DNA of 64,000 bases from Allocoleopsis franciscana PCC 7113. GTDB taxonomy: Bacteria > Cyanobacteriota > Cyanobacteriia > Cyanobacteriales > Coleofasciculaceae. The translations under genes were made by a program, and so were the position numbers. Shown here piece after piece: positions 22,714 through 43,130 of this stretch (its first letter is position 1; every line of letters starts with the position of its first letter). The DNA is taken from contig NC_019738.1 of assembly GCF_000317515.1 (NCBI RefSeq), forward strand, positions 5,916,001 to 5,980,000, given 5' to 3'. The notes under the pieces are model-generated. The model searched no databases. It was not told the DNA's origin and saw nothing but the letters and a program-made list of their open reading frames with translations.

Positions 22714-24567
22714 ATGGCAAATCACGCTTGTATCGCAATCGGCATCAATCACTATCAGTTTTTACCCCCTCTGAACTATGGGGAAGACGATGCCCAGGCG
22801 CTATGGCAATTTTGGCTCAATCAAGCTGACTTACCATCCAACCAGTGTTTGTTGTTAAGCGACACAGCACCTTTGATGGGGAACCAGTCCAGCTATCCTA
22901 CGCGGGACAATATTTTGTACGCTTTGGAGAACAATCGCCTGACTTCAGGGAATTCCTCGAATTGGCGCTGGTTCTTTTTCAGTGGCTATGGTGTTCGATG
23001 GGAACAAGTTGATTATTTCTTACCCATTGACGCTAACCCTAAGGATATTCCCGGAACCGCCATTTCCGCGCGATCGCTTTTAGGCTCCCTCAAGGCTCAA
23101 GGGGATGAAAATCTCCTCGTCTTCTTAGACATCAACCGCTCACCCGGACTGCAAGCTGGTGCGCCTGTTGGGTCGGAACTGGTGGAATTAGCACACCAAA
23201 TGGGAATTGTCCTTGTGCTCTCCAGCCAACTCGACCAATTTTCCCACGAAGCGGCAGGACTGGGTCATGGCTTATTTACGACGACACTTTTAGAAGCCTT
23301 GACCTACTATCACACGGACACGACCTTGGAGAAGCTCGAACAGTATCTAGGCGATCGCCTGCCGGAGTTGAGCCAACACCACTGGCGACCGATTCAAACG
23401 CCGTTGTTCGTGATTCCACCCCAAACCAATCAACAACAGCGGATTTGGCCTACAGCCGTTTATTCACCAGGGATTGAGCCGCATCCGGCTAGCCCTTCTA
23501 TGGCGTTTCAGTCTGGAACAAGATGGAATACTGAAGACGCTGCTGAAGATCATTCCTACAACGGAATTGGAACCCCCAAGCCAACCAGTGGGGTTTCGGT
23601 TTTAGAGTCACCCACTTATCCCTCTTCAATCCCAGGAACCACCATCCATCAGACGGAATCAGTGCCTATGGCGATGGTTCCCTATATAACTCATGGCTCT
23701 AAATCGGCTAGTCGTAAAACACCCTTGTGGCAACAAATTTTGCTTTGGGGAGGCGGTGCTGTCCTGGTTTTATTGCTGATGATTGCTGCGGTGCTATTCC
23801 GTAACCGAGATGGGTTTACCAATGAGCCGCTCGTCAATCCATCCCCGGTGAACCCTTCACCGATCACCTCACCTGTGGCAACAGAGCCACGCTCTCCGCA
23901 GACAGGCTCAGACGGCACCCTGAATCCACCAACCTCATTACCCCAGACAGGGGAGCCAAGTCGCCTTCAAGTTAATCAGGAAACATTAGATCAGGCAAGA
24001 CGCTTACTCCGACCGAATCAAGCCTCTTTATTTAATAAAGCGATTGTTCAAGCACGTCAGGTGAAACCGGGCGATCCTTTATATGCAAAGGCACGGCGAG
24101 ATATTACGCGCTGGAGTGGAGTAATTCTGGATTTAGCAGAGGGACGAGCCAAAGCTGGGAATTTTGGGGGAGCGATCGCGGCGGCTCAACTGGTTCCCAA
24201 AGATGACTGGTCTGTTTATGGCAAAGCGCAGCAGACCATTAACCAATGGAAAATACTTGCCACTCAGCAGCAGAAAAACAAAACCCTGATCCAAGAAGCT
24301 AAACAACAAATTCAACCCAATCAAGCCTCGTCTTATAGCCGTGCGATTACCACCTTACGTCCAATTTTGCCCGATCAGCCGGGGTATGACGAAGCCCAAC
24401 AGTTAACCGCTCAATGGAGCCGTACCATTTATTTAATCGCTCAGTCACGAGCGTCGCGAGGGAAATTGCAAGAGGCGATTCAGTCAGCCTCATTGGTTCC
24501 AGCCGGTACCCCTTCTGCGGAGGCGGCGAAAGTGGCGATCGCCAAGTGGCAGCAAGGCAAGCGTTAA
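22714..24567 (+). CDS. Caspase-fold (orthocaspase-like) membrane protein lacking the catalytic dyad
   Basis: 617 residues from ATG 22714. Residues 1-235 have the caspase p20-like fold: start ACIAIGINHYQ, then the strand ending FFFSGYG and LVFLDINRS. In active orthocaspases the first reads SGHG and the second D-x-C-R-S; here the His is Tyr92 and the Cys position is Asn141, so proteolysis is not expected. A disordered linker leads to one membrane helix (about 340-362), then a Pro-rich linker and two repeats of about 90 residues, each starting with LLRPNQAS/QIQPNQAS and containing an AI.AA.LVP helix pair, TPR-like. The caspase domain is probably cytoplasmic and the repeats on the other side. Likely a scaffold or pseudo-protease. 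Confidence 0.8.
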   Translation: MANHACIAIGINHYQFLPPLNYGEDDAQALWQFWLNQADLPSNQCLLLSDTAPLMGNQSSYPTRDNILYALENNRLTSGNSSNWRWFFFSGYGVRWEQVDYFLPIDANPKDIPGTAISARSLLGSLKAQGDENLLVFLDINRSPGLQAGAPVGSELVELAHQMGIVLVLSSQLDQFSHEAAGLGHGLFTTTLLEALTYYHTDTTLEKLEQYLGDRLPELSQHHWRPIQTPLFVIPPQTNQQQRIWPTAVYSPGIEPHPASPSMAFQSGTRWNTEDAAEDHSYNGIGTPKPTSGVSVLESPTYPSSIPGTTIHQTESVPMAMVPYITHGSKSASRKTPLWQQILLWGGGAVLVLLLMIAAVLFRNRDGFTNEPLVNPSPVNPSPITSPVATEPRSPQTGSDGTLNPPTSLPQTGEPSRLQVNQETLDQARRLLRPNQASLFNKAIVQARQVKPGDPLYAKARRDITRWSGVILDLAEGRAKAGNFGGAIAAAQLVPKDDWSVYGKAQQTINQWKILATQQQKNKTLIQEAKQQIQPNQASSYSRAITTLRPILPDQPGYDEAQQLTAQWSRTIYLIAQSRASRGKLQEAIQSASLVPAGTPSAEAAKVAIAKWQQGKR

Positions 24568-24723: not shown

Positions 24724-27700
24724 CTATCCCCGGACTGGTTCGCTAGCCAACAAAGGGCGTTCTGGGGTGGGTTTCGGCTGCTGTATCGGAATCTCAATCC
24801 GGAACTGGGTTCCTTGTCCGATTTGGGAGTCACATCTAAAGCTGCCCCCATGTTTTTCCACCACAATTTGATAACTAATAGAAAGTCCTAAACCCGTACC
24901 TTTCCCAATCGGTTTCGTGGTAAAGAAGGGGTTAAAGACTTTCGACAGTAGCGCTGGACTGATCCCAGGACCATTGTCAGCAATTTCAATCACAACATGA
25001 GGAGAGGTTGGCAAGGAGGATGGCGAATTTTCTCCATTCCTGTCTCCGATTCTCTCTAAGTCCACTGGCTTGACACGAGTCGAGATCGTAATCTGACTCT
25101 GATGAACCTTCATGCCCTCGGCTGTGCGACTGATATGATAGTCCTCTAGGGCATCAATAGCATTACTAAGAACATTCATGAATACCTGATTGAGCTGACT
25201 CGCATAGCACTCAACCAGTGGCAATTCACTATAAGTTTTAACCACTGTAATACCCGGATAATTGGGCTTTCCTTTGAGGCGATGTTGCAAAATCAATAGT
25301 GTACTGTCGATGCCTTCATGAATATCAACGGGCTTCATCTCTGCTTGATCCAGTCGAGAGAAATTACGCAAAGAAAGCACGAGGTTGCGGATACGTTCCG
25401 AGCCAATTTTCATCGAAGCCAAGATTTTGGGTAAATCTTCTTTGAGAAAGTCTAAATCGATGGCTTTGGCATACTCATCAACTTCTAAGTCTGGCTCAGG
25501 ATAATACTTCTGATACAGATGCAGCAGATTGAGCAAATCATGAGCATACTGATTGGTGTAGGTTAGGTTGCCGTAGATAAAGTTAACGGGGTTGTTGATT
25601 TCGTGAGCTACACCCGCCACCAATTGACCCAAACTGGACATTTTTTCCGTTTGAATCAGTTGAGTCTGAGCTTGCTTGAGATTCTCAAGAGTGAACGCAA
25701 TTTCTGCTGCTTGCTGCTCTTTGTCTTCCAATAATCCTGCTTGTTGTAAGGCAATACCCAAGTGAACGGCAACCTGTCGAACAAAGTCAATTTCCGAGGT
25801 GTCCCAATAACGTAATCCTGTGCATTGATAGATACAAAGTAATCCCCAAAGTGTATCCCCTTTGGGTAGTGGTACCATCAGCGTCGAGCGGACGTGTAAC
25901 TGCTCCAAAATTTTGATGTGACAGTCGTTCAAACCTGCATTGTAAATGTCAGGAATGGCCTGAATCCAACCGGAACGATACTTCTCCCCAAAGCAGTAAT
26001 CTTGAATGTTACGGTTCGCCTCAGGCAATCCGGGTTGAATGTCTTCAGACACAACTTCTCCGTGATCGTAGCCAAACTCAGGCGCAAAGCGGAACACAGC
26101 GACCCGGTCAGCCGCAAGTAGCCGCCGAACTTCTGTGGTTGTCGCTTTAAAAATGGCTTTGACATCTAGGGATTCTCTAATTTTGGTAATCACACCAAAT
26201 AACGCTTGTTGTTGTTGAGCAACAATCGCCAGTTGTTTGGCTTGAGCGGTTGCTGTCGCGGCAGCAGTGCGGCTTTTGTCATAAAGTTCAGCTTGCTGAA
26301 TCGCCACAGCCGCTTGATCAGCCAATTGTTGGAGTAGATCGATCTCAAAGGCTTGCCAGCTACGGGGCGCATGACATTCTTGGGCAATCAGAAATCCCCA
26401 CAGAGGCTGTTCCTCTTGATTTTTGTGGAGGCTTGTAGGAGTACAGCCACAGCTAAAAATATCTTGGGAATGGTAAGCCCCCATTCCAATTGGGACAATT
26501 AAGGTGGCTTGGATGTGGAAACGCTGCAAAAACTCTCGCTGAGCCGGTGCAAGGGGGGCACGAGCGACATCGCTAATCACGCGCACTCTGCCGCGTTTGT
26601 ACGGTTGACTCTGTGTTTCGAGAAAGTAGCCGTGAGGGTCACTTGCCCCTAAAGTCGAGAACCAGTCGCCGTTAATCGATTCGACAATCACTTTACCCTG
26701 AGCGTTATCAGCAAACTGGTAAATGACGACTCGGTCTGTATCGAGCAGGGAGCGAACTTCTCGGACAATGGTTTGCAGAATCGTGTTTAGATCGAGGGTG
26801 CTGCGGATTTGGCTGGTGACTCGCTCCAAGGCACGCCCCTGTTCCAGCGCTTGTTGTAATTTGGCGGTGCGCTCTTCGACTTGGCGTTCTAGGTTGGCGT
26901 TGAGGGACTGCACCAGAGAATAGAGTTCATACTGCTCAATGGCCATGGCAAATTGATGACCTAAGGCGACTGCCAATTCAATGTCCTGGCGTGTCCATTC
27001 CTTGGCCTGACCCCGTTTTAACTCTCGCCAAACTTCAAACGACTGCCTGGGAAGCCGTTGTTTTTCACTCGGATCGAAGCGTCCCGCCCACAAGGTTTCC
27101 GTATCGATTTCGGGACGAAAGATGCTGAGATAGCCGAGAAACGAAGAGCGATAATACAAGGGCATCACGAGGATTCCTCGAATCGTCGTGAACTGGAAGG
27201 CTGGGGTGAGGGTACGCCAGTCTGGAAGGCTATACAAGTTGGTCACCGTTAGGGGCGAACAACTGGGGAAGAAGGGTACTCCCTTGGGAGTGGGAGTGGG
27301 TGATGAATCGATGGGGGGGTTTCCAGGTTGGGATGAGGAATTCTCTTCCGGTTCTCTTCGTTCTCTAAGAAAGAGGGTGTTCTCTTCCAGGCAGGATGTC
27401 CAAGCGGTAAAGACAGGATGCTGTTCGATTAAACTCTCGGTTTCTCCAATCAGAGGTGCCAGTTGAGTTCCACAGGTCAACACTTCCGCCCGATCATCGG
27501 TGGTGTAAGGGGCGATGTAGAGTCTGCCGCCACAACCTTGGAGGGCGGTGACTGTTTCTTCGAGTGCAGCAGAAAGCTCAATCGTTGGTAGAGAATGCAA
27601 CAGCGTAGCAACTCGGTTGGTTGTCGCTTCGACAAAGTGCTGTTGTCTGGTTTTTGCTAAGAGATGGGACTGAGCGATCGCAATTGAAACCTGATCAATC

Positions 27701-28338
27701 GCCCACTGCATCACTTGCAGTTCCCGTCGGGATATCACACGCAATTGGATGCTGTGACAGACCAAGAGTCCCCACAATTGTTCCTTAGCGTGTTCAGACT
27801 GGATATTGTTATGCACAATCGGCAAAACCACTGTAGATTGAACCCCCATCGCCGTCAGATAGGCGGCATGACAAGAATCTACAGGGTGATATTCAACGAG
27901 TTCCTCTAGGGGTATTGTCTCTTCGCTGGTAATACAGCAATCAATGGGTAACCAACCAATCCGCCCCAATCCCACATCGACGAAAGAACATAGACGCTTT
28001 TCCATATACTTCTGGCGGGCTGTTTCCGGAATGTCATCGGCTGGGAAGTTTAGCCCTTTGAGGGAGGGAAGACAATTGTCTTGAATCGACTCCGCCATCA
28101 CTTCTCCACTGCCAGATGCATGAAACTGATAAACGATGACCCGGTCAGTTCCCAACAATGAACGAAGCTCAGCAACAGTCGCTGTTAAAATCTCTTCCAA
28201 TTCCAGAGATTGACGAATCCGATTGGTAATTCGGCGTAGCAAATCTTCCTGGCTTAGTTCTGGCTGTGACACTGTCCTAATCTCTATAAAAATTTTTTCT
28301 GTCGTTATGCACCCAACGTATCGATTAAAGATGTACAA
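24724..28338 (-). CDS. Phytochrome/cyanobacteriochrome hybrid histidine kinase (Cph2-like GAF-PHY plus DXCF GAF)
   Basis: 1204 residues from TTG 28338; GTG 28272 (residue 23) is a likely alternative start. GAF1 (about 45-225) has the phytochrome PADDIP motif and the bilin-binding Cys156 in DSCHAAYL. The next domain (about 240-470) has the PHY tongue: LWAGRF at 416-421 and PRQSFEVW at 430-437, so GAF1-PHY form a knotless, Cph2-like photosensory module. GAF3 (515-685) resembles a cyanobacteriochrome but has Ala-Gln (599-600) where Cys-His belong. GAF4 (715-865) has DYCF (780-783) and Cys806-His807, a complete DXCF cyanobacteriochrome. Then DHp with His912 (GVAHEINNPVNF) and HATPase (DNGPGI, GKGTGLGLS). 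No receiver domain or adjacent regulator. Confidence 0.9.
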   Translation of the reverse strand: MYIFNRYVGCITTEKIFIEIRTVSQPELSQEDLLRRITNRIRQSLELEEILTATVAELRSLLGTDRVIVYQFHASGSGEVMAESIQDNCLPSLKGLNFPADDIPETARQKYMEKRLCSFVDVGLGRIGWLPIDCCITSEETIPLEELVEYHPVDSCHAAYLTAMGVQSTVVLPIVHNNIQSEHAKEQLWGLLVCHSIQLRVISRRELQVMQWAIDQVSIAIAQSHLLAKTRQQHFVEATTNRVATLLHSLPTIELSAALEETVTALQGCGGRLYIAPYTTDDRAEVLTCGTQLAPLIGETESLIEQHPVFTAWTSCLEENTLFLRERREPEENSSSQPGNPPIDSSPTPTPKGVPFFPSCSPLTVTNLYSLPDWRTLTPAFQFTTIRGILVMPLYYRSSFLGYLSIFRPEIDTETLWAGRFDPSEKQRLPRQSFEVWRELKRGQAKEWTRQDIELAVALGHQFAMAIEQYELYSLVQSLNANLERQVEERTAKLQQALEQGRALERVTSQIRSTLDLNTILQTIVREVRSLLDTDRVVIYQFADNAQGKVIVESINGDWFSTLGASDPHGYFLETQSQPYKRGRVRVISDVARAPLAPAQREFLQRFHIQATLIVPIGMGAYHSQDIFSCGCTPTSLHKNQEEQPLWGFLIAQECHAPRSWQAFEIDLLQQLADQAAVAIQQAELYDKSRTAAATATAQAKQLAIVAQQQQALFGVITKIRESLDVKAIFKATTTEVRRLLAADRVAVFRFAPEFGYDHGEVVSEDIQPGLPEANRNIQDYCFGEKYRSGWIQAIPDIYNAGLNDCHIKILEQLHVRSTLMVPLPKGDTLWGLLCIYQCTGLRYWDTSEIDFVRQVAVHLGIALQQAGLLEDKEQQAAEIAFTLENLKQAQTQLIQTEKMSSLGQLVAGVAHEINNPVNFIYGNLTYTNQYAHDLLNLLHLYQKYYPEPDLEVDEYAKAIDLDFLKEDLPKILASMKIGSERIRNLVLSLRNFSRLDQAEMKPVDIHEGIDSTLLILQHRLKGKPNYPGITVVKTYSELPLVECYASQLNQVFMNVLSNAIDALEDYHISRTAEGMKVHQSQITISTRVKPVDLERIGDRNGENSPSSLPTSPHVVIEIADNGPGISPALLSKVFNPFFTTKPIGKGTGLGLSISYQIVVEKHGGSFRCDSQIGQGTQFRIEIPIQQPKPTPERPLLASEPVRG

Positions 28339-28763: not shown

Positions 28764-29222
28764 TTAGTTTTTGGGCAGACGCCGCCGAATTTCTTGACGA
28801 ACATTCATGAGAATCTGACCGAGTTGGTTCTGACCTGTTTTTTCCTGGCCGCAGCCCCAGTAGTAATCGGTGGGAGAGTCTTCGACAATTAGTTCTTCAC
28901 CCGTATTAAGTAGAATAACCTGAATATCGGTATGGGTGAGAAACTTAGTCAGAACCCCTTGCCACATCACTTGGCATTTAACCTCTTCCCAGTCACAACG
29001 CAGTTTGAGGGTGCGATCTCGCCCTATTTGAGCCGCTTCCATTGGTGTTTTGGCGTCTCGAATCACTTGGATCAATCGTTCATTCTCAGTACGGACAAAT
29101 TTTTGAGCTTGATAGTAATGCTCCACCGTTTGCCAATATAATCCCTCCACCTCAATCGGGTGAACAGAGAAGTTGGAAAAGCAGCCGTAGGGGTCACTCA
29201 CTTTATAAAAATAAATTGTCAT
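28764..29222 (-). CDS. NADAR family protein (YbiA-like N-glycosidase fold)
   Basis: 152 residues from ATG 29222, full length for the family. Signature residues are all visible: an N-terminal YFYKVSDPYGCFSNFS, the W.TVEHYYQAQKF motif and the C-terminal DYYWGCG followed by G.N.LG. YbiA/NADAR proteins cleave N-glycosidic bonds, e.g. in riboflavin intermediates, and some members reverse ADP-ribosylation of guanine in DNA. No toxin partner (such as a DarT-like gene) lies next to it, so a housekeeping detoxifying role is as likely as a defence role. Confidence 0.9.
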   Translation of the reverse strand: MTIYFYKVSDPYGCFSNFSVHPIEVEGLYWQTVEHYYQAQKFVRTENERLIQVIRDAKTPMEAAQIGRDRTLKLRCDWEEVKCQVMWQGVLTKFLTHTDIQVILLNTGEELIVEDSPTDYYWGCGQEKTGQNQLGQILMNVRQEIRRRLPKN

Positions 29223-32398: not shown

Positions 32399-35300
32399 TT
32401 AAGTTGCTGTGATCAACACTCGGACTTTTTCAATTAAACCGATGCTAGAGAATCCTTTGGTTAAATAATCGGTTGCACCTAAGCGTCTTGCCTCATCAAA
32501 CCATTCCTCCGATAAGCGTGACGAAATCACCAGAATGGGAACTGTGATTCCCGCTTTTCGGCATCGGTCAATCAATGTAAAGCCATCCATATTCGGCATT
32601 TCAATATCCGTAATCACTAGATTCGGATGGGGATGCGCTTGCAACCAATTCCAGGCTTCTAGTCCATCTACACAGCTATGAGTCGGATAGCCATAAGTAT
32701 TCAGCGTCGCCTCCAGTCGTCGCCGCATCAAGGCGGCATCATCCACAATCAGGATGGATGGAGTTAGATGATTTGCTTGTTCAACTTCAGAAGTTGATGA
32801 TGCTGTGCTTGCAGTTCCCAAAACATGAGTGGAAAAGGTTAGCAGTCGTTTTGCCAAGGTGGGAGCGTCTAGAACAGGGAGTAAAGCCCCATTAGTTTGT
32901 AAGCTCACACCAATTAACCCATCGGGTGCAACCATTGGCTTGGGTAGAGGATTAATGATGACTTCAGCCTGTTCTAATAGTTCGTCAGCCAGTAACCAAA
33001 CACCTTGCGTGGCTTCCTCGCCATATATAGAGAGGCAAATGGTTGTATCGGTTAATGGGCGCGTGGAAGAATGAGGCTGCCAGTACTTGAGCAAGTCTAA
33101 GGCAGCCAAGCGTCCAGTTTCATCCTCAATCATGCCTAACAAGGCAGGGTTAGAATCTTTGACTGGGGACAGATTCAAGTTGCACAATAAATTGATGGTC
33201 TTAATGTCATCGACAGGTAGAGCAAAGGTAGAATCCCCGGAGCGCAGCATGACACAGGAAACCAACAGGCGAGGGACTGGAAATTTGAGATGAAACGTTG
33301 TCCCAGAACCTTGAACGGTGTGGAGCGTCATCCGTCCCCCTAATCGAGCGACTTGAGCGGCAATCACATCCATGCCAATCCCACGTCCAGAAATCTCACT
33401 CACTTGCGTGCGAGAACTAAAGCCCGGTTGGCAAATGACTGCCAGGAGTTCAGCCGGTGTTTGGGTGTTTGACAGAGGTAATCCCAAGGCTTCCGCTCTG
33501 GCTTGAACGGCTTTAGCATCAATTCCTCGACCATCATCCCTCAGTTCCAACTGGAATAGATTCCCCAGCCGCTGGAGGGATAGAGTCAGGGTGCCTTGCT
33601 CTGGTTTCCCTTGGGCAACTCGCTCTGCGGAGGATTCTAATCCATGGTCGTAGGCATTGCGAATTAAGTGGAGTAACAAGGGTTCCAAGTTTCGGGCTGT
33701 GTTGACATCGAGTTCAGTTTGTTCCCCTTGAACTACCAGTTTGGCCGGTTTACTATAGCGAGTTGTAAGGTCGCGAATAATCGCTCTGGCTCGGAAGCCC
33801 AAATTTTGGAAGGGGACAAGCCGACTATCCTCAATTGTGTTTTGCAGCTTCAAAACATTATTGTCAACATTCCGCAGGTATTCGGCGACTTGCTGTGATG
33901 TTTTTCCTGTCTCCGCCCCCATTTCAGATAAGCGCAGACTAGTCTCTAGCAAGCGATTGATGATGGTATATCCCTGGCGATAGCGTTCACGGACAAGCCC
34001 TTGTGAGCCTGTCTGCGTACTCTTACTTAATTCATCTAAGAGGACATAGTCATCCTGAATCTGGCGGAGATGGGCGATCGCCTGAGCACTTTCCTGGGCG
34101 AGAGTCACAAGCTGCGCGATCTGGTGTTGCAGCGCTTGATAAAATCCTTGCGTGCTGCGGAGTGACAGTAGGGTGTCTACCAAGTATTTTGCTGATTGGT
34201 CGAGTTTCTCTAGGGGCACTGGAATCTGAACCATCTCCAGTGCTTTGTTCGATCGTTCTGCCTTGGCGGTTGCTATATCAATAACGACTGGGGGCAGTTC
34301 AGCAGGGGAGGAGGATGGAGCAGGTGGAGAAGGTGGGGAAGAAATTTCTCCCTTATCCTCCCATTGCCACTCATCGCCCTCATCGCTTTCATAACCCCAA
34401 TTGACCCAATCGACTCCAACTTCTAAAGATGCTTGTACCTGATCAACAACAGAATCTTGCTCCTGAGTTGGAGTGGGGGGATGAGCAACAAAATCGTCAA
34501 GGCTCGTTTCATCCAGCCATTCCTGAACTTGACTGAAGTCTAGAGGGAGATCTGCTGAATCATCTTGGTTTAAGAATGCCTCAACCTCCTCAGGATCGGT
34601 GAGAGCATCAACTGGGTTGGGTTGAGCAAGGGGTGGCTCAACCTCAGTCAGATTTGCCCAATCTTCCAGGGGGAAAGCATCCAGAAAGTTTGTGATTTCA
34701 GGAATCGTTGAATTTTCCCCTAAATTTAGCGCATCGAGGAATGCTCCAACGTCATCTAGGGTATCTGTTTGACTGGAGTCATCTAGAAACGCATCAGACG
34801 GGTTCGGTTCAAGGGATAAGAGGTTGGATTGTGACAATAAGTCAGCCTCTAATTGAGCAGAGTCATCCTCTGGTGTCGTTTCTAGGTAGAATTGCGGCTC
34901 TGCAACCCGCCCATCATCCACACTTGCTTCAAAACTAGCGAACTCAAAGAAAACAGGATTGCCACTTTGCTTGGCACAAGTCTTGAGTGCCTGAAACAGA
35001 AGCGACCACTGCGATTGACCATGCCTTTGTTCCTTGGACAATCGCCAAATGGCATTGTCTGGATGATTCAATAATGTCTGCGCCTGAGTGAGCAGATCTG
35101 TCCAGCCTGGAGCAAATTGCAACTCCTGACCAATTTGCTCCAGTTGTTCTAGAGTTTGCTGTGCCGTGTGGAGTGTGCGAGCGGGCACTGTTCCCTGAGC
35201 GGGTAGTTGCTCCAAGGCAATTTCCAACTCCAGCACCACCAGGTCTAATCCTTGTTCAGCAAAGTCTTGATGAAGTTGTCTAAGCTCATTCCACTGAGAT

Positions 35301-35740
35301 AGGTAGCGTTTCCGAATCTCCTCGTGAAGCACCTGAATCCGGTTTAGGAGGGGGTCGTTTTCCTTGGATTGTTGAAATTCAACGGTTACCGTCAGTAACT
35401 CTCCTGCCTCCAGCAAGGCTTGGCTCAGATGACCATCACCCAGAAGTGGAGCCAGTTCTAGATAGCGTAAATCGGATAGCACATCTTCTAAAGCGGTTGC
35501 CACGTCCAGAACCGCTAAGGCTCCGACCGTTACGGCTCCACCTTTGATGGTGTGAATACAACGGTAGAGTTCCTGAATATCCGCTCGCCAGGATTGGGGT
35601 TGGAGAGACTGGGCAATCTGGCTATATTTTTGCAGATACTCTTGAGTATCAATAATGAAAAGACTATAGAGCTCTTGTTGTAATTGAGCGTCAGCGAGGG
35701 CTTCAATACCTTGGGAAGAATCAATCTCTGGAATCGACAT
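32399..35740 (-). CDS. Hybrid CheA-type kinase (Hpt-kinase-CheW-REC), PilL-like
   Basis: 1113 residues from ATG 35740. Order: N-terminal Hpt with phosphoacceptor His63 (CIHTIKGGA), helical region, a long acidic linker (about 280-470, rich in Asp, Glu, Pro), dimerisation helices, CheA HATPase (LIRNAYDHGLES, DDGRGID, GRGIGMDV), a CheW-like domain, and a C-terminal receiver with Asp1045 (TDIEMPNMDG) and Lys1095. This is the architecture of PilL/TaxAY kinases that control type IV pilus-driven phototaxis or hormogonium motility in cyanobacteria. It is the last gene of a six-gene operon and receives input from the two MCPs through the CheW protein. The receiver probably acts as a phosphate sink or output. 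Confidence 0.93.
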   Translation of the reverse strand: MSIPEIDSSQGIEALADAQLQQELYSLFIIDTQEYLQKYSQIAQSLQPQSWRADIQELYRCIHTIKGGAVTVGALAVLDVATALEDVLSDLRYLELAPLLGDGHLSQALLEAGELLTVTVEFQQSKENDPLLNRIQVLHEEIRKRYLSQWNELRQLHQDFAEQGLDLVVLELEIALEQLPAQGTVPARTLHTAQQTLEQLEQIGQELQFAPGWTDLLTQAQTLLNHPDNAIWRLSKEQRHGQSQWSLLFQALKTCAKQSGNPVFFEFASFEASVDDGRVAEPQFYLETTPEDDSAQLEADLLSQSNLLSLEPNPSDAFLDDSSQTDTLDDVGAFLDALNLGENSTIPEITNFLDAFPLEDWANLTEVEPPLAQPNPVDALTDPEEVEAFLNQDDSADLPLDFSQVQEWLDETSLDDFVAHPPTPTQEQDSVVDQVQASLEVGVDWVNWGYESDEGDEWQWEDKGEISSPPSPPAPSSSPAELPPVVIDIATAKAERSNKALEMVQIPVPLEKLDQSAKYLVDTLLSLRSTQGFYQALQHQIAQLVTLAQESAQAIAHLRQIQDDYVLLDELSKSTQTGSQGLVRERYRQGYTIINRLLETSLRLSEMGAETGKTSQQVAEYLRNVDNNVLKLQNTIEDSRLVPFQNLGFRARAIIRDLTTRYSKPAKLVVQGEQTELDVNTARNLEPLLLHLIRNAYDHGLESSAERVAQGKPEQGTLTLSLQRLGNLFQLELRDDGRGIDAKAVQARAEALGLPLSNTQTPAELLAVICQPGFSSRTQVSEISGRGIGMDVIAAQVARLGGRMTLHTVQGSGTTFHLKFPVPRLLVSCVMLRSGDSTFALPVDDIKTINLLCNLNLSPVKDSNPALLGMIEDETGRLAALDLLKYWQPHSSTRPLTDTTICLSIYGEEATQGVWLLADELLEQAEVIINPLPKPMVAPDGLIGVSLQTNGALLPVLDAPTLAKRLLTFSTHVLGTASTASSTSEVEQANHLTPSILIVDDAALMRRRLEATLNTYGYPTHSCVDGLEAWNWLQAHPHPNLVITDIEMPNMDGFTLIDRCRKAGITVPILVISSRLSEEWFDEARRLGATDYLTKGFSSIGLIEKVRVLITAT

Positions 35741-35770
35741 AATTAAAATAAAGAGATTCAGAGAAACTAT

Positions 35771-38017
35771 TTAGATATCTGAATGGTTCTCGGACACTGG
35801 AGCGATTGTGCAAGCCAGAGGCGATAGCTCAGCCACTTCCGATACGAGATGCGGTTCGGAGTGCAGTTGGAAAAATTCAACCGTTTGCAGCAACGTTCGA
35901 GCTAAGTGTTCCATATGCTGAGCCTGTTCTCTCGTCACTCCCGCTCGATTGAAGGTTTCAGTAGAGATGTCAGAGATATAGTGAACCAATTCCAAGGTCG
36001 TTTGAGCCGCATCGGCGATCGCTTGACTCGATTGCGTCGCTTGCTGACCCATGTGAGCCACTTGCTCACTCACGGACAAAATGGTGTTGAATGCCTGCTG
36101 GGACTGCTCTACACCCGTGGTGAAGTTGCCAACCTGCTGACTAATTTCTTGGACATCGGAGTTGAGTCCAGATACAACGGTTTGAATTTGGTCTGTTCGT
36201 TGTTGGAGCAGAATCAAGCTTTGTTTGGTTTGGGTTGCCAACTGATTCACCTGCCCTGAAATCACCTCAAATTCACGAGTGATCACTGCCATTTGTTCTG
36301 GATCTTCCTGTACCTTGGCTCGGTTCGACAGCATGGAAGCATTCACTGCGAGTATTTGGGACATGGCGGTAATGCGTTGCTGATCTTTTACGAACTGAGT
36401 GGCGAGTTCAACGTAATTGGTTAGGGTTTCAGTTCGTTGAACAATGTTTGAACTCTCTCGCTGTAGCCCTTGAATCCCTTGGCTCATAGCCATAATTTCT
36501 TGTTGTCCCCGGTCAATAGCAGCCTGTGTTAATTGAACGGCTTCATCGGTGGCAACCGCCTGCAACGCTGTATCCTGAGCTTGGTCGTTGACTTGTTGCA
36601 TCAAGGTTTGTACTTGAGCCACCGATTGCATTTGCTCTTTAACACTGTCTGCCACCGCAACTGCCAACTGTTCTAAATCTTCCGTGCCCTGAGTCACTCG
36701 AAAAGCGGCACGTAAAACCATCGCCATCACCTGTCCCAGTCGTTCAACGAGGCGATTCAAGGTATCGCCGACCAATCCTGTCACACGAGGACTCACCTTG
36801 GCTTCTACAGTCAAGTCTCCACCCTCAACAGCGGAAATCACATCGAGTAGGTGTTCGACTTCTTGCTGCAATGCTTGACTTTCCTCATTTAGGGTTGCTG
36901 TTCGTTCTGCAACTCGCTCCTCTAAACCCTTGCGTATCTCCTCCACCGCCGCAAACGACTCTCGCAATTGTTGCGCCATCTGGTTAAAGGATTGTTCTAA
37001 GACGCCCAACTCTCCAAAACCCTTTACCTCCAGAGTTTGGTTCAGATTTCCAGCGGCAATGGCTTGAGAGGCTTGGCTTAATCGAATGGCAGCACTGATC
37101 AGTTCGTCAGAACTATTTTCTGCTTGCAGTCGTTGGGGCTTCCCACTAATGATGGTATAGGGTTGCGATTTTCCTGAATTGGCAACAATAAAACCGTTTT
37201 TTTCGACAATAAAAAGCTTTGCTGAAGGACTCACATTCAGCGTATTGAGATAACCACTAATTTGCGAAAGGATTAGGTCAATTCCAATTACGCCCAGAAA
37301 GGTTTTGTTACTGTTATATACGGGATAGCTGGATGAAATTGACAAAACTTCTGGCTTATCTTCCCATTGATAAACCTCAGTCCAAAGCGGATGACCGACT
37401 CGCGCTGCCTCCGCATACCAGGCTTCTGTTCTCGGATCGTAGGACTTCGTTTCTTTTAACTTTGTTCGATTGCCACGCTCATCCGTTTGGTAAACGTACA
37501 ACTTGCCTCCGGTGGATGAACTAGACACTTCATTAATCAGCAAATTTCCATCATCCAAACGCTCCACTCCAATAAACTCACCTTTGGTATTGGCATAGTT
37601 GTTATAGCCAATATTAAAGACTTTCATTTGCCTCCAAAAATATTTTCCTAGCCTTCTGAAGTTTTCCAGGTCTAAGGCTTCTAATTCAAGCGCATCTAGG
37701 TTAATTTGATTGAGCTGATGAGGGATCTTTAAGTAAGAGTCAAGGTGAGTTGAGACGCGCTCGCTCACTTCTGTTTGCAACCGTCCAGCCATTTCATTTA
37801 CGGCCTGCTGACCATGGCGAATGGAAAGCCATCCGGTGAGTCCTACAGCAGTAACCATTGGCACCACAAACGATGTGACAACTAAGACACGGATGCTGAC
37901 CTGACGCCGAATCCCAAAGTTGCGATTGTGGGGGGTGGGCGGTGGTGCTGAAGCCCTGTTCAGCTGAGTTTCTTGAAGTGGAGAAACGACAGTGGGTTGA
38001 GTTTGGAGGGTTGCCAT
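35771..38017 (-). CDS. Methyl-accepting chemotaxis protein, PilJ-like, apparently missing its second membrane helix
   Basis: 748 residues from ATG 38017. One membrane helix (about 43-65), then a dCache-type sensor: WTEVYQWEDKPEVLSISSSYPVY and LGVIGIDLIL are visible. After about residue 305 the sensor stops and the sequence passes at once into a HAMP (RLSQASQAIAAGNLNQ, about 312-360), without the distal sensor part or a second membrane helix. A second HAMP-like segment (385-435) and a cyanobacterial MCP signalling domain (440-720) with tip sequence REFEVISGQVNQLA follow. The protein would not span the membrane twice as required. It is 30 bases upstream of the CheA gene. Confidence 0.88.
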   Translation of the reverse strand: MATLQTQPTVVSPLQETQLNRASAPPPTPHNRNFGIRRQVSIRVLVVTSFVVPMVTAVGLTGWLSIRHGQQAVNEMAGRLQTEVSERVSTHLDSYLKIPHQLNQINLDALELEALDLENFRRLGKYFWRQMKVFNIGYNNYANTKGEFIGVERLDDGNLLINEVSSSSTGGKLYVYQTDERGNRTKLKETKSYDPRTEAWYAEAARVGHPLWTEVYQWEDKPEVLSISSSYPVYNSNKTFLGVIGIDLILSQISGYLNTLNVSPSAKLFIVEKNGFIVANSGKSQPYTIISGKPQRLQAENSSDELISAAIRLSQASQAIAAGNLNQTLEVKGFGELGVLEQSFNQMAQQLRESFAAVEEIRKGLEERVAERTATLNEESQALQQEVEHLLDVISAVEGGDLTVEAKVSPRVTGLVGDTLNRLVERLGQVMAMVLRAAFRVTQGTEDLEQLAVAVADSVKEQMQSVAQVQTLMQQVNDQAQDTALQAVATDEAVQLTQAAIDRGQQEIMAMSQGIQGLQRESSNIVQRTETLTNYVELATQFVKDQQRITAMSQILAVNASMLSNRAKVQEDPEQMAVITREFEVISGQVNQLATQTKQSLILLQQRTDQIQTVVSGLNSDVQEISQQVGNFTTGVEQSQQAFNTILSVSEQVAHMGQQATQSSQAIADAAQTTLELVHYISDISTETFNRAGVTREQAQHMEHLARTLLQTVEFFQLHSEPHLVSEVAELSPLACTIAPVSENHSDI

Positions 38018-38030
38018 AGAGTATGTCCAG

Positions 38031-38062
38031 GGTGCGGGGGTGCGGGGGTGCGGGGGTGCAGG
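38031..38062. repeat. Octamer tandem repeat GGTGCGGG
   Basis: Four copies of GGTGCGGG (the last one base different) lie 14 bases upstream of the MCP start at 38017, in the short space between the two MCP genes. Same unit as at 24571-24640. Confidence 0.9.
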
Positions 38063-38147
38063 GGAGATGTTACCTGGTCAGTTATTTCCACTGCACTGCA
38101 CTACGAGGGACTTTTGGAGCAGAAACGATCCAGGTGATTTCCGTGGG

Positions 38148-40817
38148 TTAAGTGCGATCGGCTGCCAGCAGTAGCGATTCACTATCACTTTCTGTTGGGA
38201 CATGGCTGTCTGTTTCTGAAGCAGAGGGTAGCTGGAAGAATTGAACCGTCTGAAGTAATTGAGCAGACAGGAGATCCATTTGATCGGAGCGTTCTCTAGC
38301 GATCTGAGTGAGTTCTGCGGTTTTGTTGGCGAGTCCAGCAATATCTCGCATCACCATGGCAGTGGTTTGAGCAGCTCCCACAATGTCCTCACTGAAATGA
38401 GCGACCGCTTCACCCGCTTGCACAGCCTCACCCGTGACCTTCTGAACCCGATCAAAAACTTGATTTGATTGCTCAACACCTGTAGTAAACTGCCTGACGA
38501 GGTCACCCAAACCCTGCACATCACTATCGACGGCTGATACAACACTGTGAATTTGGGCACTCTGTTGTTCGAGGGCGGTCAGTCCTTCACTGGTTTGTTG
38601 AGCCAACTTGCTCACCTGATCGGCAATCGAGTCAAATTCACGGGCAACCACCACAAATTGTCTGGGGTCACGCTGTTCAGATGCTCTGGCTGCCACAAGG
38701 GATGCATTCAAGGATAGGGTTTGGGTGATAAAGGCAATCTGGTTTTGGTTTTGTACAAATTGATCCGCTAAACCCACAAATTCGCTCAGCGTTTTCATCC
38801 GCTGCACAATCCGGTCAGTGCCTTCCTGCAAAATTGTGATGCCTTGAGTTAATGCCGCGATCGCTTCTTGCCCCTGGATCAATGTCGTAGACACTGTTTG
38901 TAGGGATTCATTCGATGCGGTTGCTCGTTCAGCAGAACCTTGGGCGGCGTTTTCGACTTGTTCCGTCAAACTCAACACTTGTCCCACGGCTTGAGCTTGT
39001 TGGTCGGCATTGGTGGCGACCGTTTCAGCGAGTTCAGTTTGCTGGTTGGCTCCCTGCGATACCTGACGTGCCGCCGTCCAAACCTCGTCTAGGACTTCAG
39101 CTAGTCGTTCAATGAAGCGGTTAAAGGTATCGGCAACGACTCCGGTAATGTGATCACTTACTGTCACCTGAGCAGTCAAGTTACCCTCTGCTGCCAGCAA
39201 GACCACATCGAGCAGATGTTTCACTTCATCTTGGAGAATGCTGCTTTGCAATGTGAGAGCCAGCAGACTGCCAATCGAGTAAACAAAAGTCTGCTCCTCC
39301 ATTTGCCACCGCCGTCGAGTTCCCACCTGTTCGCAGCGGATAATCCCTGCCGGATAGCCGCTAATCTGGATAGGCAGATCCAGCAGCGATACAATATGGC
39401 TCGGTGTCAGATAGGACTCGACTAATTCTAGAGTACGGGGGTCGCTATGCACATCATTGACGATGATGGATTTATTCTGACTCAGCGCCTCAAAATATTG
39501 GGGGAAATCTGCTTGATGCTGAGTCATTCCTGTGAAATACCGCTCCAAGGTGTGATCGTATAGTTCGAGGCAGGTAAGCTGGGAGCGATCGGAGTTATAG
39601 AGCCAAATGCTCACACGGTCAACCCCTAATGTTTCAGCCGTTGCTTTAATAAATAGTCTGGCGGCTTGCTCTAAGTTTCCCTGCGCCAGTGATTCATCGC
39701 GAGACAGTGAAGCCAGGACGGTATTCTGCCGTTGTACTCCTTCCGCGTAAGCCTGCAATCGCCCCTGAGATTGCTCTAGTCGATCGAAGACTGAGTTGAA
39801 TGTCGCCGCTAGATGGGATAGTTCATCGTTACCGGATAAAAATACTCTTTCCGCCAAAATACCATTGGTACCAATTTGGCTCACGGTGTTACTGAGGCGG
39901 CTCAGTCGTGACAAAATAGATTTTTCTAAAAACCAAATGATTGCAATACTAAACATTGAACCCAGCAACAGGATTCCGATCACAAGGTAATTTAAACTCG
40001 CTTGCCCTCGTGCAAACACTGTTCTGGGTTCAGTTACTCGTAATAGAAATGCAGGTTTTCCGGAAATGTCTTTGAGTAAGGCATAGCCAGCAATTGAGTC
40101 CTGGTTGAGGGGTTTAGCAAAGGACTGTTTGCCCTGCATAAAAGCCTTTCGTGCCTGCTGAAAATCAGGAGCAAGCTGTTTGGCTTCAAACGGCTCCAGT
40201 TTAATATCCGGCAGCTTGGTTAGGTCTTTCAATTGCTGAATAAACGGTTGATCGAGATAACGACCCATAATTAACGTTCCTCGAATGGGTCCGGTTCCTT
40301 CACTGGTGATAATCGGTTGTGAAGTCAGCATCATTGGGCCTTCGGGAAGTTGAATAAACCCTAAATGCTCGCTTTTGGGGTCGGGATGTTTCAGTAAAGG
40401 GCTTGAGGGTGAAAGCTGAGCGAGAAAGGCTTGAGAAACAGGGACTTCTTTGTTTTGATTGAAGTCTACGCCTTGGGAAAAAACAATCTTCCCTGATTTA
40501 TTGATATATATCGCAGCACTGAGTCTTAAATTAGCGAGGTGATCGTTCGTAAAATTACTGTCAATATAAACAGGATCTCTGTTAATGATGAACTGATAAG
40601 AGTCATCCCAGCGAGAATAATCACGAGTCTGACGCGAGATATTATCTAGAGTAGTGGTTAAGATATCTAAGACCCGTTGGACATCTTTATTAACCTGTTG
40701 ATTTTCTAGGGCAATATAACTTTTAGTTAATAAAGTTCTCGAAATTAAATAAAAGCCTATTGATAAACCAACAAGTCCCACTCCCAGACTCAACAAAACT
40801 TTATTTTGTAGCTTCAT
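38148..40817 (-). CDS. Methyl-accepting chemotaxis protein with CHASE4 and GAF domains, PilJ-like
   Basis: 889 residues from ATG 40817. Membrane helix 1 (about 7-28), periplasmic CHASE4-type sensor (about 45-270, with the SRWDDSYQF motif), membrane helix 2 (about 276-298), HAMP (299-352), a GAF domain (375-528) without bilin-binding motifs, a second HAMP-like segment (530-585) and the signalling domain (590-850) with REFDSIADQVSKLAQQT at the tip. It contains both extracytoplasmic and cytoplasmic sensors. In the operon it sits after CheW and before the second MCP, the PilJ position of Pil-Chp-like systems. Confidence 0.92.
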   Translation of the reverse strand: MKLQNKVLLSLGVGLVGLSIGFYLISRTLLTKSYIALENQQVNKDVQRVLDILTTTLDNISRQTRDYSRWDDSYQFIINRDPVYIDSNFTNDHLANLRLSAAIYINKSGKIVFSQGVDFNQNKEVPVSQAFLAQLSPSSPLLKHPDPKSEHLGFIQLPEGPMMLTSQPIITSEGTGPIRGTLIMGRYLDQPFIQQLKDLTKLPDIKLEPFEAKQLAPDFQQARKAFMQGKQSFAKPLNQDSIAGYALLKDISGKPAFLLRVTEPRTVFARGQASLNYLVIGILLLGSMFSIAIIWFLEKSILSRLSRLSNTVSQIGTNGILAERVFLSGNDELSHLAATFNSVFDRLEQSQGRLQAYAEGVQRQNTVLASLSRDESLAQGNLEQAARLFIKATAETLGVDRVSIWLYNSDRSQLTCLELYDHTLERYFTGMTQHQADFPQYFEALSQNKSIIVNDVHSDPRTLELVESYLTPSHIVSLLDLPIQISGYPAGIIRCEQVGTRRRWQMEEQTFVYSIGSLLALTLQSSILQDEVKHLLDVVLLAAEGNLTAQVTVSDHITGVVADTFNRFIERLAEVLDEVWTAARQVSQGANQQTELAETVATNADQQAQAVGQVLSLTEQVENAAQGSAERATASNESLQTVSTTLIQGQEAIAALTQGITILQEGTDRIVQRMKTLSEFVGLADQFVQNQNQIAFITQTLSLNASLVAARASEQRDPRQFVVVAREFDSIADQVSKLAQQTSEGLTALEQQSAQIHSVVSAVDSDVQGLGDLVRQFTTGVEQSNQVFDRVQKVTGEAVQAGEAVAHFSEDIVGAAQTTAMVMRDIAGLANKTAELTQIARERSDQMDLLSAQLLQTVQFFQLPSASETDSHVPTESDSESLLLAADRT

Positions 40818-40885
40818 AGGATACCTTTAAAACACATGCTTATATCAAACATTTTGATTCAACCAAGTTATAGCTTGCGAATGCA

Positions 40886-41377
40886 TCATCGAGGTTGCCA
40901 AATTGATTGCGGAATCTTTTCGGGTTGAAACATCTCTATAGAGAGATTGAATGATTCTGTCGCTTGTTGCTGATTCAGCCCTAGTTGTTCCTGGGAAATA
41001 CTGCCAATCACTCGATCAACGATTAGCCCCACACCAAAAAGTTCACTAACTGATGAACTCAAACGGATCGCTGTCAACTTTTCCTGAATTCTTTGCCGTT
41101 GGATCAGGTGTTCCTGAGTTACTGGATTGCTCAATTGGGGGGTAATCAGAGAGATAATATTGCCCTGATGGTGAACAATTCCCTCCAACCTAGAATCATA
41201 GAAGGGTAACTTGAGGATTTGTGAGCGCTCAATGAGCATAATTTCAGTAACCCACTGTGATGGAAAACTAATTTTTTGCTCTCCGATTTGTGTCAGAATA
41301 TAGCGACGCTGAAAGGACTGTAAAGAGAATGAATGAGTTTCGATATCAACAGGAATATTCATCAGATTTGACAGCAT
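40886..41377 (-). CDS. CheW-like coupling protein, PilI-like
   Basis: About 163 residues from ATG 41377 (in-frame TTG 41398 and ATG 41362 are alternatives; none has a strong ribosome site). It is one CheW domain: an N-terminal RRYILTQIGEQKISFPSQWVTEI segment split across the first strands, the LEGIVHHQGNIISLI motif typical of CheW, and GVGLIVDRVIG. It would bridge the MCPs and the CheA kinase encoded downstream. Position between the CheY and the first MCP matches the pilG-H-I-J-L order. Confidence 0.85.
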   Translation of the reverse strand: MLSNLMNIPVDIETHSFSLQSFQRRYILTQIGEQKISFPSQWVTEIMLIERSQILKLPFYDSRLEGIVHHQGNIISLITPQLSNPVTQEHLIQRQRIQEKLTAIRLSSSVSELFGVGLIVDRVIGSISQEQLGLNQQQATESFNLSIEMFQPEKIPQSIWQPR

Positions 41378-41485
41378 TTTCCAGGACTTAACGTTCAAAT
41401 TAATAAGCTAAAAGTCTGATTTATTAATTCTTTTAGCTCAATCGTGAATTGATCAAAATGTATAATAAAAGAAGTGATATGAGTC

Positions 41486-41854
41486 TTAGAGTTCTTGTAA
41501 GGTTTGTTCAAGACGCTCACGGGTAATGGGCTTAGTCAAATAATCATTTGCACCAGCTCGCCTAATTCCATAACTGACTTCTACAGGTGTTTTTTTGCTG
41601 GAATAGAAAATTACATGCTGATTGACAGTGCGTTGGTTCAATCGCAACTCTCTTAAAAATTTGTAGCCATCTTTTTCTGGCATAACAATGTCCAAAAATA
41701 CGGAGTCATATTCGCCAGTTATGAGCTTTTCAATGATGCCGGTTGTACTGTCATATGCCTCAACTTGATGACCCATTTCTTCCAAGATGGACGCCAGAAA
41801 ACGCCGATCTACAGCACTATCATCGACAATAATGAATCGCAAGTGTTCTTTCAT
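41486..41854 (-). CDS. CheY-like single-domain response regulator, PilH-like
   Basis: 122 residues from ATG 41854. A stand-alone receiver with the acidic pair Asp11-Asp12, phosphoacceptor Asp55 (FLDIVMPEKDG), Ser85/Ser86 and Lys108 (DYLTKPI). Second gene of the chemotaxis-like operon, 62 bases after the PatA-type regulator. By analogy to PilH/TaxY it takes phosphate from the CheA protein of the same operon and tunes pilus motor activity. Confidence 0.92.
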   Translation of the reverse strand: MKEHLRFIIVDDSAVDRRFLASILEEMGHQVEAYDSTTGIIEKLITGEYDSVFLDIVMPEKDGYKFLRELRLNQRTVNQHVIFYSSKKTPVEVSYGIRRAGANDYLTKPITRERLEQTLQEL

Positions 41855-41915
41855 CGATTAAACTCTCTCAAAGAAATAACTGTTTTCATGTTTAAACACC
41901 TAAACGATGGTTAAT

Positions 41916-43130
41916 TTAGCTGGATTGATGGATAAGGAGCAGTTGTGAGAGTAATAGACGAAGTCCCTGTTTGAATCTTGAGACATCATTAGGTGCAAGG
42001 GGTTTGCTTAAGAATTGACAACCACTCCATCGCGCTCGCCAGTTATTGGTCAGGGTTTGTTCCGCCGTTAACATAATGATGGGCACTGAAGCTAATTGAG
42101 GTTGGCGGCGAATTTGTTTAACCAAATCAAAACCCGTTATTCCCGGCATGTTGATATCTAGGAAGAAAACGGCAGGGTTTGAATGGGGTATGGATTGTAG
42201 GAGGGTTGTAGGGTCGTTAAATGCTCGAACGGAATATCCCCAAGTTGTCACCAAAGTTTCAAACTGTTTCAGGATTAAAGGGGAGTCATCAACAACAAAT
42301 ATTTCAGGTGTAGAGGTAACAGGAGGCGATTGGATTTTTATGAAGCGTTTATCAATCAAGCTAGCAAAGACTTTAGCAATTTCTAACGAATCTTGAGCCA
42401 GAGATGAGGCAATATCATTCAAGGTTTGACCCTTTGACACTAATGTCTTCAACCACAGCTTCTGCTGGTTCGTTAAATTAGCAGAATTGACGACTTCAGA
42501 GTTAATAAGTGGCACACTTTCCATCGATGGAATGGTAGTTCGTAGCTTCTTCCACCAAACTTGTCGCTCTTTGGCTTGGGACAGTAAATCCTCGATATCA
42601 AATCCTGACAGTGAAGTTTGGAGTTCAAGCGGAGTAGAGGGTATAAACTTAGCCTGTCCTGGATACTTGAAGAGATAGGTATCAAAGTCTGATAAAATTC
42701 CCAATCGTAAGGCTCCTCTCAATTCCTCCATTGTGAACAAGCCCAGTTGCTGTAATTCATGCATCAGTTCCAGGAATAAGACTGATTGTCCTTTCTGTTT
42801 TTCTTGCATGAATCGTTTTTCTAATTCCACAAGGGCGTATCTAACATCCGCATTTTGTAAACGAGATATATAACGCTGAAATATCTTGAGAAATACTTGC
42901 CATGAGAGCTTTTGATTTCCAGAAAATACAACCTGCCCTTGAGAGACTCCGAGGCACCACCGATTCATGCTATCTGTTCCACCCAAAATCGGAAATTCAA
43001 ATAGTAAATACCCTGTCAGTGCCTCTTGAGATACTTGGCATAGTTTCTGGGGCAACTCTTGTGCTTGAAACTTAAAAGTGTAGGGTTGTAGTATTTTCAT
43101 TGGTACATCTAGATCAGTATGGAAGCTCAT
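41916..43130 (-). CDS. PatA-type regulator (PATAN/DUF4388 plus receiver), PilG-like
   Basis: 404 residues from ATG 43130. The N-terminal half contains a DUF4388/PATAN-like module (LTGYLLFEFPILG, WCLGVSQGQVVFS) and a helical region ending in a winged-helix-like segment (KTLVSKGQTLNDIASSL); the C-terminal 120 residues are a receiver with Asp325 (FLDINMPGITG) and Lys371. Proteins of this layout are the first gene (pilG/taxP position) of cyanobacterial Tax/Hmp/Ptx operons. It leads the six-gene operon; the long 1.2-kb upstream region suggests complex control. Confidence 0.9.
   Translation of the reverse strand: MSFHTDLDVPMKILQPYTFKFQAQELPQKLCQVSQEALTGYLLFEFPILGGTDSMNRWCLGVSQGQVVFSGNQKLSWQVFLKIFQRYISRLQNADVRYALVELEKRFMQEKQKGQSVLFLELMHELQQLGLFTMEELRGALRLGILSDFDTYLFKYPGQAKFIPSTPLELQTSLSGFDIEDLLSQAKERQVWWKKLRTTIPSMESVPLINSEVVNSANLTNQQKLWLKTLVSKGQTLNDIASSLAQDSLEIAKVFASLIDKRFIKIQSPPVTSTPEIFVVDDSPLILKQFETLVTTWGYSVRAFNDPTTLLQSIPHSNPAVFFLDINMPGITGFDLVKQIRRQPQLASVPIIMLTAEQTLTNNWRARWSGCQFLSKPLAPNDVSRFKQGLRLLLSQLLLIHQSS

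Follow-up and report, generated by a model that had tools for sequence, protein, structure and literature searches.

Gene locus and domain architecture

The window analysed here, a stretch of 64,000 nucleotides from the genome of Allocoleopsis franciscana PCC 7113 (NC_019738.1, positions 5,916,001 to 5,980,000), harbours on its minus strand an ORF (24724–28338; 1204 aa from a TTG start codon) coding for a sensor histidine kinase with the domain order GAF1-PHY-GAF3-GAF4-histidine kinase. Pfam models matched three GAF stretches (3.5e-57), PHY (residues 385–469, 4e-11) and HATPase_c (2e-21). The span given for this ORF by a preceding sequence-only reading would be about 22 codons too long at the 5′ end if translation starts at the GTG of residue 23 (window position 28272; protein of 1182 aa). 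This start is the more likely one, since the TTG is replaced by TCG in the congener (locus L087) and the GTG is conserved there. The congener's protein is 94% identical and served as reference for the start comparison and for dN/dS; all residue numbers are counted from the TTG, and all domains and motifs of the kinase described below locate on the minus strand.

The dN/dS values of GAF1 (0.088), PHY core (0.054), GAF3 (0.118), GAF4 (0.053) and kinase (0.114) indicate that sensor domains and kinase alike are under purifying selection. Against this range of 0.05–0.12, residues 318–360 reach 0.60. Because of this fast evolution and the low AlphaFold confidence around residues 319–358 (model segment 300–339), the latter stretch looks like a disordered linker. 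The motifs listed by the sequence-only reading were all found at the residues it gave, and the Pfam matches, the structure alignments and the invariance among orthologues argue against chance occurrence.

Directly upstream of the kinase gene, a NADAR/riboflavin-intermediate N-glycosidase-like gene was detected (28764–29222; TIGR02464, 173.8 bits), which precedes the kinase gene also in six more loci (L087, L017, L006, L088, L091 and L092). Convergent with the kinase gene, a gene at 22714–24567 codes for a protein with a caspase domain (Peptidase_C14) and, probably, a membrane segment. No response regulator is encoded next to the kinase gene; the nearest ones belong to a taxis-like operon on the same strand (32399–43130), which codes for a CheA-type hybrid kinase with Hpt and receiver domains, a dCache-HAMP protein, a CHASE4-HAMP-GAF chemoreceptor, a receiver-only protein and a protein with C-terminal receiver. 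This operon was considered as a second photoreceptor system and discarded, since its one GAF chemoreceptor lacks a bilin-binding cysteine.

Knotless phytochrome module and kinase output

The N-terminal part of the protein comprises a bilin-type phytochrome GAF domain (GAF1, residues 24–230; 27649–28269) and a PHY domain (GAF2, residues 236–475; 26914–27633). GAF1 matches the All2699 structures 6oza/6ozb at about 2e-61 (phmmer; 55% identity to 6oza) and contains the motifs RIT (36–38) and PADDIP (99–104) as well as the predicted bilin attachment site Cys156-His157 (27868–27873), which aligns with the bilin Cys-His of 6oza and 8w26; Cys156 falls on the bilin cysteine of both 6oza and 6ozb. The PHY tongue (residues 408–447; 26998–27117) carries WAG (417–419), PRQSF (430–434, within PRQSFEVW 430–437) and WRE (437–439), which correspond to the hairpin motifs W(G/A)G, PRXSF and WX(D/E) described for All2699 and Cph2 (PMC6696110). 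Residues 24–470 align with Synechocystis Cph2 (4bwi) at an E-value of 6.5e-45 (phmmer). In all 20 orthologous GAF-PHY modules compared, Cys156, His157, Asp102, Trp417, Arg431, Ser433 and Phe434 are invariant. In the AlphaFold model of GAF1-PHY (pLDDT 79.6; input alignment of 20 rows), the tongue is folded as a long beta hairpin. The best fold match of this model is Cph2 4bwi (E 8.3e-31), followed by SyB-Cph1. No PAS domain was detected by Pfam, and GAF1 starts within about 30 residues of the protein start.

With a GAF-PHY pair devoid of an N-terminal PAS domain and knot, the bilin Cys-His, the DIP-type Asp102 and the hairpin motifs, GAF1-PHY is predicted to be a knotless phytochrome module of the Cph2/All2699 type. 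The corresponding part of the sequence-only reading is thereby borne out, including its assignment of the tongue. From its motifs, the module would be expected to bind phycocyanobilin (PCB) covalently and to undergo a red/far-red photocycle. Bilin synthesis should be possible in the host, since three matches each to haem oxygenase and to ferredoxin-dependent bilin reductase are present in its genome.

The histidine kinase output (residues 880–1190; 24769–25701) possesses all boxes of this class, which are also retained in the orthologues: the phospho-acceptor His912 (H box), the N box (1055), G1 (DNGPGI, 1121), the F box (1136) and G2 (GTGLGL, 1147). HisKA scored below the Pfam cut-off (21.5 versus 26.9 bits), with an intact H box.

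Cysteine-less GAF3

GAF3 (residues 500–700; 26239–26841) is a degenerate GAF of the two-cysteine cyanobacteriochrome type, a loss that the sequence-only reading had overlooked. APAQ replaces the canonical xxCH, and the DXCF position also lacks a cysteine; both bilin cysteines are likewise gone in all sampled close orthologues. A tree of 78 GAF domains, inferred by a quick search without bootstraps and supported by SH-aLRT values, places GAF3 within a clade of GAFs that occupy position 3 and carry two cysteines (SH-aLRT 93), where it belongs to a fully cysteine-less subclade (SH-aLRT 100) composed of the query, the congener, Symplocastrum and three family members. As this subclade is nested among dual-cysteine domains, GAF3 is a former two-cysteine GAF that lost both. 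In the Nostocales orthologues, a red/green-type GAF with Cys-His takes its place.

GAF4 of the DXCF lineage with a shortened segment

GAF4 (residues 705–880; 25699–26226) precedes the kinase directly and falls into a clade of 25 rows, most of them DXCF domains (SH-aLRT 95, same tree). The structure 6oap was matched by sequence at 1.2e-39. The DYCF motif (780–783; 25990–26001) contains the putative second cysteine, Cys782, aligned with the DXC cysteine of relatives, and Cys806-His807 (25918–25923), the predicted canonical bilin site, aligns with the bilin Cys-His of 6oap, 6bhn and 3w2z. Since the alignments place both Cys156 and Cys806 on the bilin position, the misplacement that would have contradicted the sequence-only reading was not observed. 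Comparison of the AlphaFold model (pLDDT 84) by Foldseek and VIA-align yielded Z 24.6 and an rmsd of 1.7 A over 166 residues for 6oap and Z 20.7 for TePixJ (3vv4), values which support the fold and do not bear on bilin chemistry. The AlphaFold models contain no bilin.

GAF4 deviates from its relatives directly behind the DYCF motif. Between Glu785 and Lys786 (25983–25984), four residues are deleted that correspond to His498-Trp499-Val500-Glu501 of TePixJ, so that the two cysteines are spaced by 24 residues, versus 28 in 39 of the 46 domains (44 distinct) with a cysteine at the DXC position. The alignment with TePixJ, reached via an orthologue, also shows a spacing of 28 for the latter. Among the 46 domains, a spacing of 24 is confined to the query, the congener and Coleofasciculus S288 (L006 and L090, from one genome). 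Codon-pattern scans across one order of cyanobacteria detected the short spacing in 3 of 389 genomes and the normal one in 340, with patterns that require exact D-x-C-F, Tyr, Gly and Asp and therefore undercount both classes equally; in the source genome itself, 11 copies with normal spacing were found. A fourth short-spacing candidate, genome G041, was dismissed as a chance match with an in-frame stop. The deletion removes a helical turn, on which in TePixJ two residues, His498 and Trp499, form hydrogen bonds to the B-ring propionate of the bilin (PMC6955287). As the deletion covers both, these contacts should be missing in GAF4. Furthermore, Trp791 and Thr819 of GAF4 replace Arg507 and Asn535 of TePixJ, respectively.

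GAF4 thus combines D-x-C-F, the canonical cysteine and descent from the DXCF lineage with a lack of the 28-residue spacing and of the propionate contacts, features that are typical of DXCF domains, not formally defining. The sequence-only reading had regarded GAF4 as a DXCF two-cysteine colour sensor; lineage and both cysteines agree with that, but the spacing of 24 instead of 28 leaves an ordinary blue/green sensor unestablished. GAF4 may rather be retuned, and blue/green colours are not to be assumed. GAF4 and the PHY core have the lowest dN/dS of the protein, and GAF4 is 96.5% identical to that of the congener; this strong purifying selection indicates that GAF4 is probably functional. GAF4 could even, although this is less likely than not, be a functional cyanobacteriochrome that represents a new sub-type, in which the turn and the propionate contacts were lost and Cys782 would act in an altered geometry, and which is joined via the dead GAF3 to a knotless phytochrome. 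Such a geometry could, for example, result in a fixed adduct, in an adduct at another carbon or in a shifted colour pair without any C10 adduct.

That GAF4 operates as an ordinary DXCF domain, with Cys782 attacking C10 in the dark, PCB being converted to PVB and a blue/green switch like that of TePixJ, would require the missing turn to be harmless and appears rather unlikely. Asp780, Cys782, Phe783, Cys806 and His807 are all retained, and in TePixJ the B-ring propionate contact differs between the two crystal subunits and the photocycle is not blocked (PMC6955287). Yet the gap lies right behind the motif and removes both propionate contacts, the equivalents of Arg507 and Asn535 are altered as well, and a spacing of 28 is otherwise nearly universal.

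Unlikely, too, is a gradual loss of the photosensor role of GAF4, which would leave a kinase that in practice senses red/far-red light, with GAF3 and GAF4 as structural couplers. GAF3 of the same protein has already gone that way, the deletion is limited to this lineage, and in the sister protein from the draft genome of Coleofasciculus S288 (L006:3521-7144) the canonical GAF4 cysteine is replaced by His, the DXCF cysteine being retained. Loss of the canonical cysteine next to the same deletion suggests a relaxed need for normal bilin binding in that lineage. Decay is difficult to reconcile, however, with the constraint on GAF4, which like that on the PHY core is the strongest in the protein, and with both cysteines being present in the congener. 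A third sensor, formed by non-covalent binding of bilin to GAF3, would conform to the purifying selection on this domain (dN/dS 0.118) and its ancestry among bilin-binding GAFs but is highly improbable in view of the loss of both cysteines, which the query shares with every close orthologue sampled, and of a lineage-specific insertion near residues 620–640.

Related photoreceptors

A kinase uniting a knotless module, a separate bilin-type GAF and a histidine kinase output in one chain, as encoded here, belongs to a known layout of multi-photosensor kinases. IflA of Fremyella diplosiphon, the subject of a 2013 study by Bussell and Kehoe, reportedly senses four colours by two bilin domains, for blue/green and red/far-red, with mutual cross-talk in one kinase; the present protein resembles it in combining one kinase with two bilin-type domains. 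Synechocystis Cph2 (4bwi) has the PAS-less GAF-PHY with hairpin in common with the present protein, and full-length Cph2 contains a C-terminal DXCF GAF, too; its output is GGDEF/EAL, not a kinase. PPHK of Leptolyngbya JSC-1 (6oap), the top match of GAF4 by sequence and by fold, is a two-sensor kinase with phosphorylation rather than light as second input. On this ground it was abandoned as a precedent with two light sensors and is regarded as a structural neighbour only. At the DXC position, PPHK has a Tyr (DQYF in the GAF4 alignment) where GAF4 has Cys782. One state of the PPHK bilin GAF absorbs green light at 562 nm (PMC11480761).

All2699 (AphC) of Nostoc PCC 7120 (6oza/6ozb) shares the knotless GAF1-GAF2, the hairpin motifs, a further bilin-type GAF and the histidine kinase. 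In this one kinase, PCB is bound both by g1, with bands at 638/685 nm and a photoproduct at 705 nm when g2 is included, and by g3 (645/595 nm; PMC6696110). All2699 possesses three GAFs, the third of the red/orange type (645/595 nm), whereas four GAF-like domains are present here, with a cysteine-less GAF3 and, as second sensor, a DXCF-lineage GAF4 with deletion. SyB-Cph1, a PAS-less phytochrome (8w26), has GAF-PHY and an N-terminal RIT motif in common, but its described architecture includes no additional photosensor GAF (PMC11264168). The GAF of TePixJ (3vv4/4glq/6pru) shares DXCF, canonical cysteine and fold with GAF4, and differs in the His498-Trp499 turn and the spacing of 28, the turn being deleted and the spacing 24 in GAF4.

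Named relatives of the kinase were found in Coleofasciculus S288, Symplocastrum torsivum and Nostocales. Among 42 tongue-bearing ORFs from the sampled loci, 25 contain a two-cysteine GAF further towards the C-terminus. As two of them represent the query itself, the layout recurs in 23 other genomes, one of which (L092) was read short of its kinase. Fischerella muscicola possesses, immediately upstream of the orthologue, another knotless-phytochrome ORF, which includes a red/green-type GAF (L007:5107-7098). The orthologues of Nostoc and Komarekiella (L018–L023 and L040; about 1290 aa) contain four cysteine-bearing sensor units in one kinase, in the order knotless, red/green-type, DXCF and red/green-type.

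Proposed signalling and significance

On balance, the gene product is probably a soluble sensor kinase, likely dimeric, with two bilin photosensors in series. We infer bilin binding, the colours, the direction of kinase control and signal integration from the features described above. PCB would be held by GAF1 via Cys156, with the PHY hairpin closing over the bilin; red light would cause a D-ring flip and refolding of the hairpin, and the signal of this red/far-red switch would be relayed along the long helices. GAF4, directly ahead of the kinase, may bind a bilin via Cys806, and Cys782 together with the shortened following segment may give rise to a retuned, probably short-wavelength photocycle. 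GAF3, devoid of covalent bilin, could couple the two photosensors through its helices, and the states of both photosensors would converge on the autophosphorylation of His912.

The proposal that two photosensors feed one kinase is in line with both modules residing on one chain with a complete-looking kinase and with the bilin cysteines in place. An output that compares two colour ranges is likewise reasonable but has already been demonstrated for such a design, reportedly in IflA, and with All2699 as a kinase carrying bilin on two GAFs. The design of a two-photosensor kinase is already known from other cyanobacteria, as evident from the All2699 precedent, from IflA as reported and from the 23 further genomes that share this layout. 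New in the present protein are the shortening of GAF4 behind its second cysteine and the pairing of this domain with a dead GAF3.

The shortened GAF4 represents a natural test of how much the chemistry of this domain needs the segment after the second cysteine, and a clean one, because none of the other genomes sampled in the order has the shortened form. If the turn matters, restoring the four residues to GAF4, or removing them from TePixJ, should shift the colours. With the layout being known, it is this natural variation that gives the protein its value: within one family, bilin GAFs have been acquired, exchanged and inactivated, while the knotless module and the kinase stayed the same.
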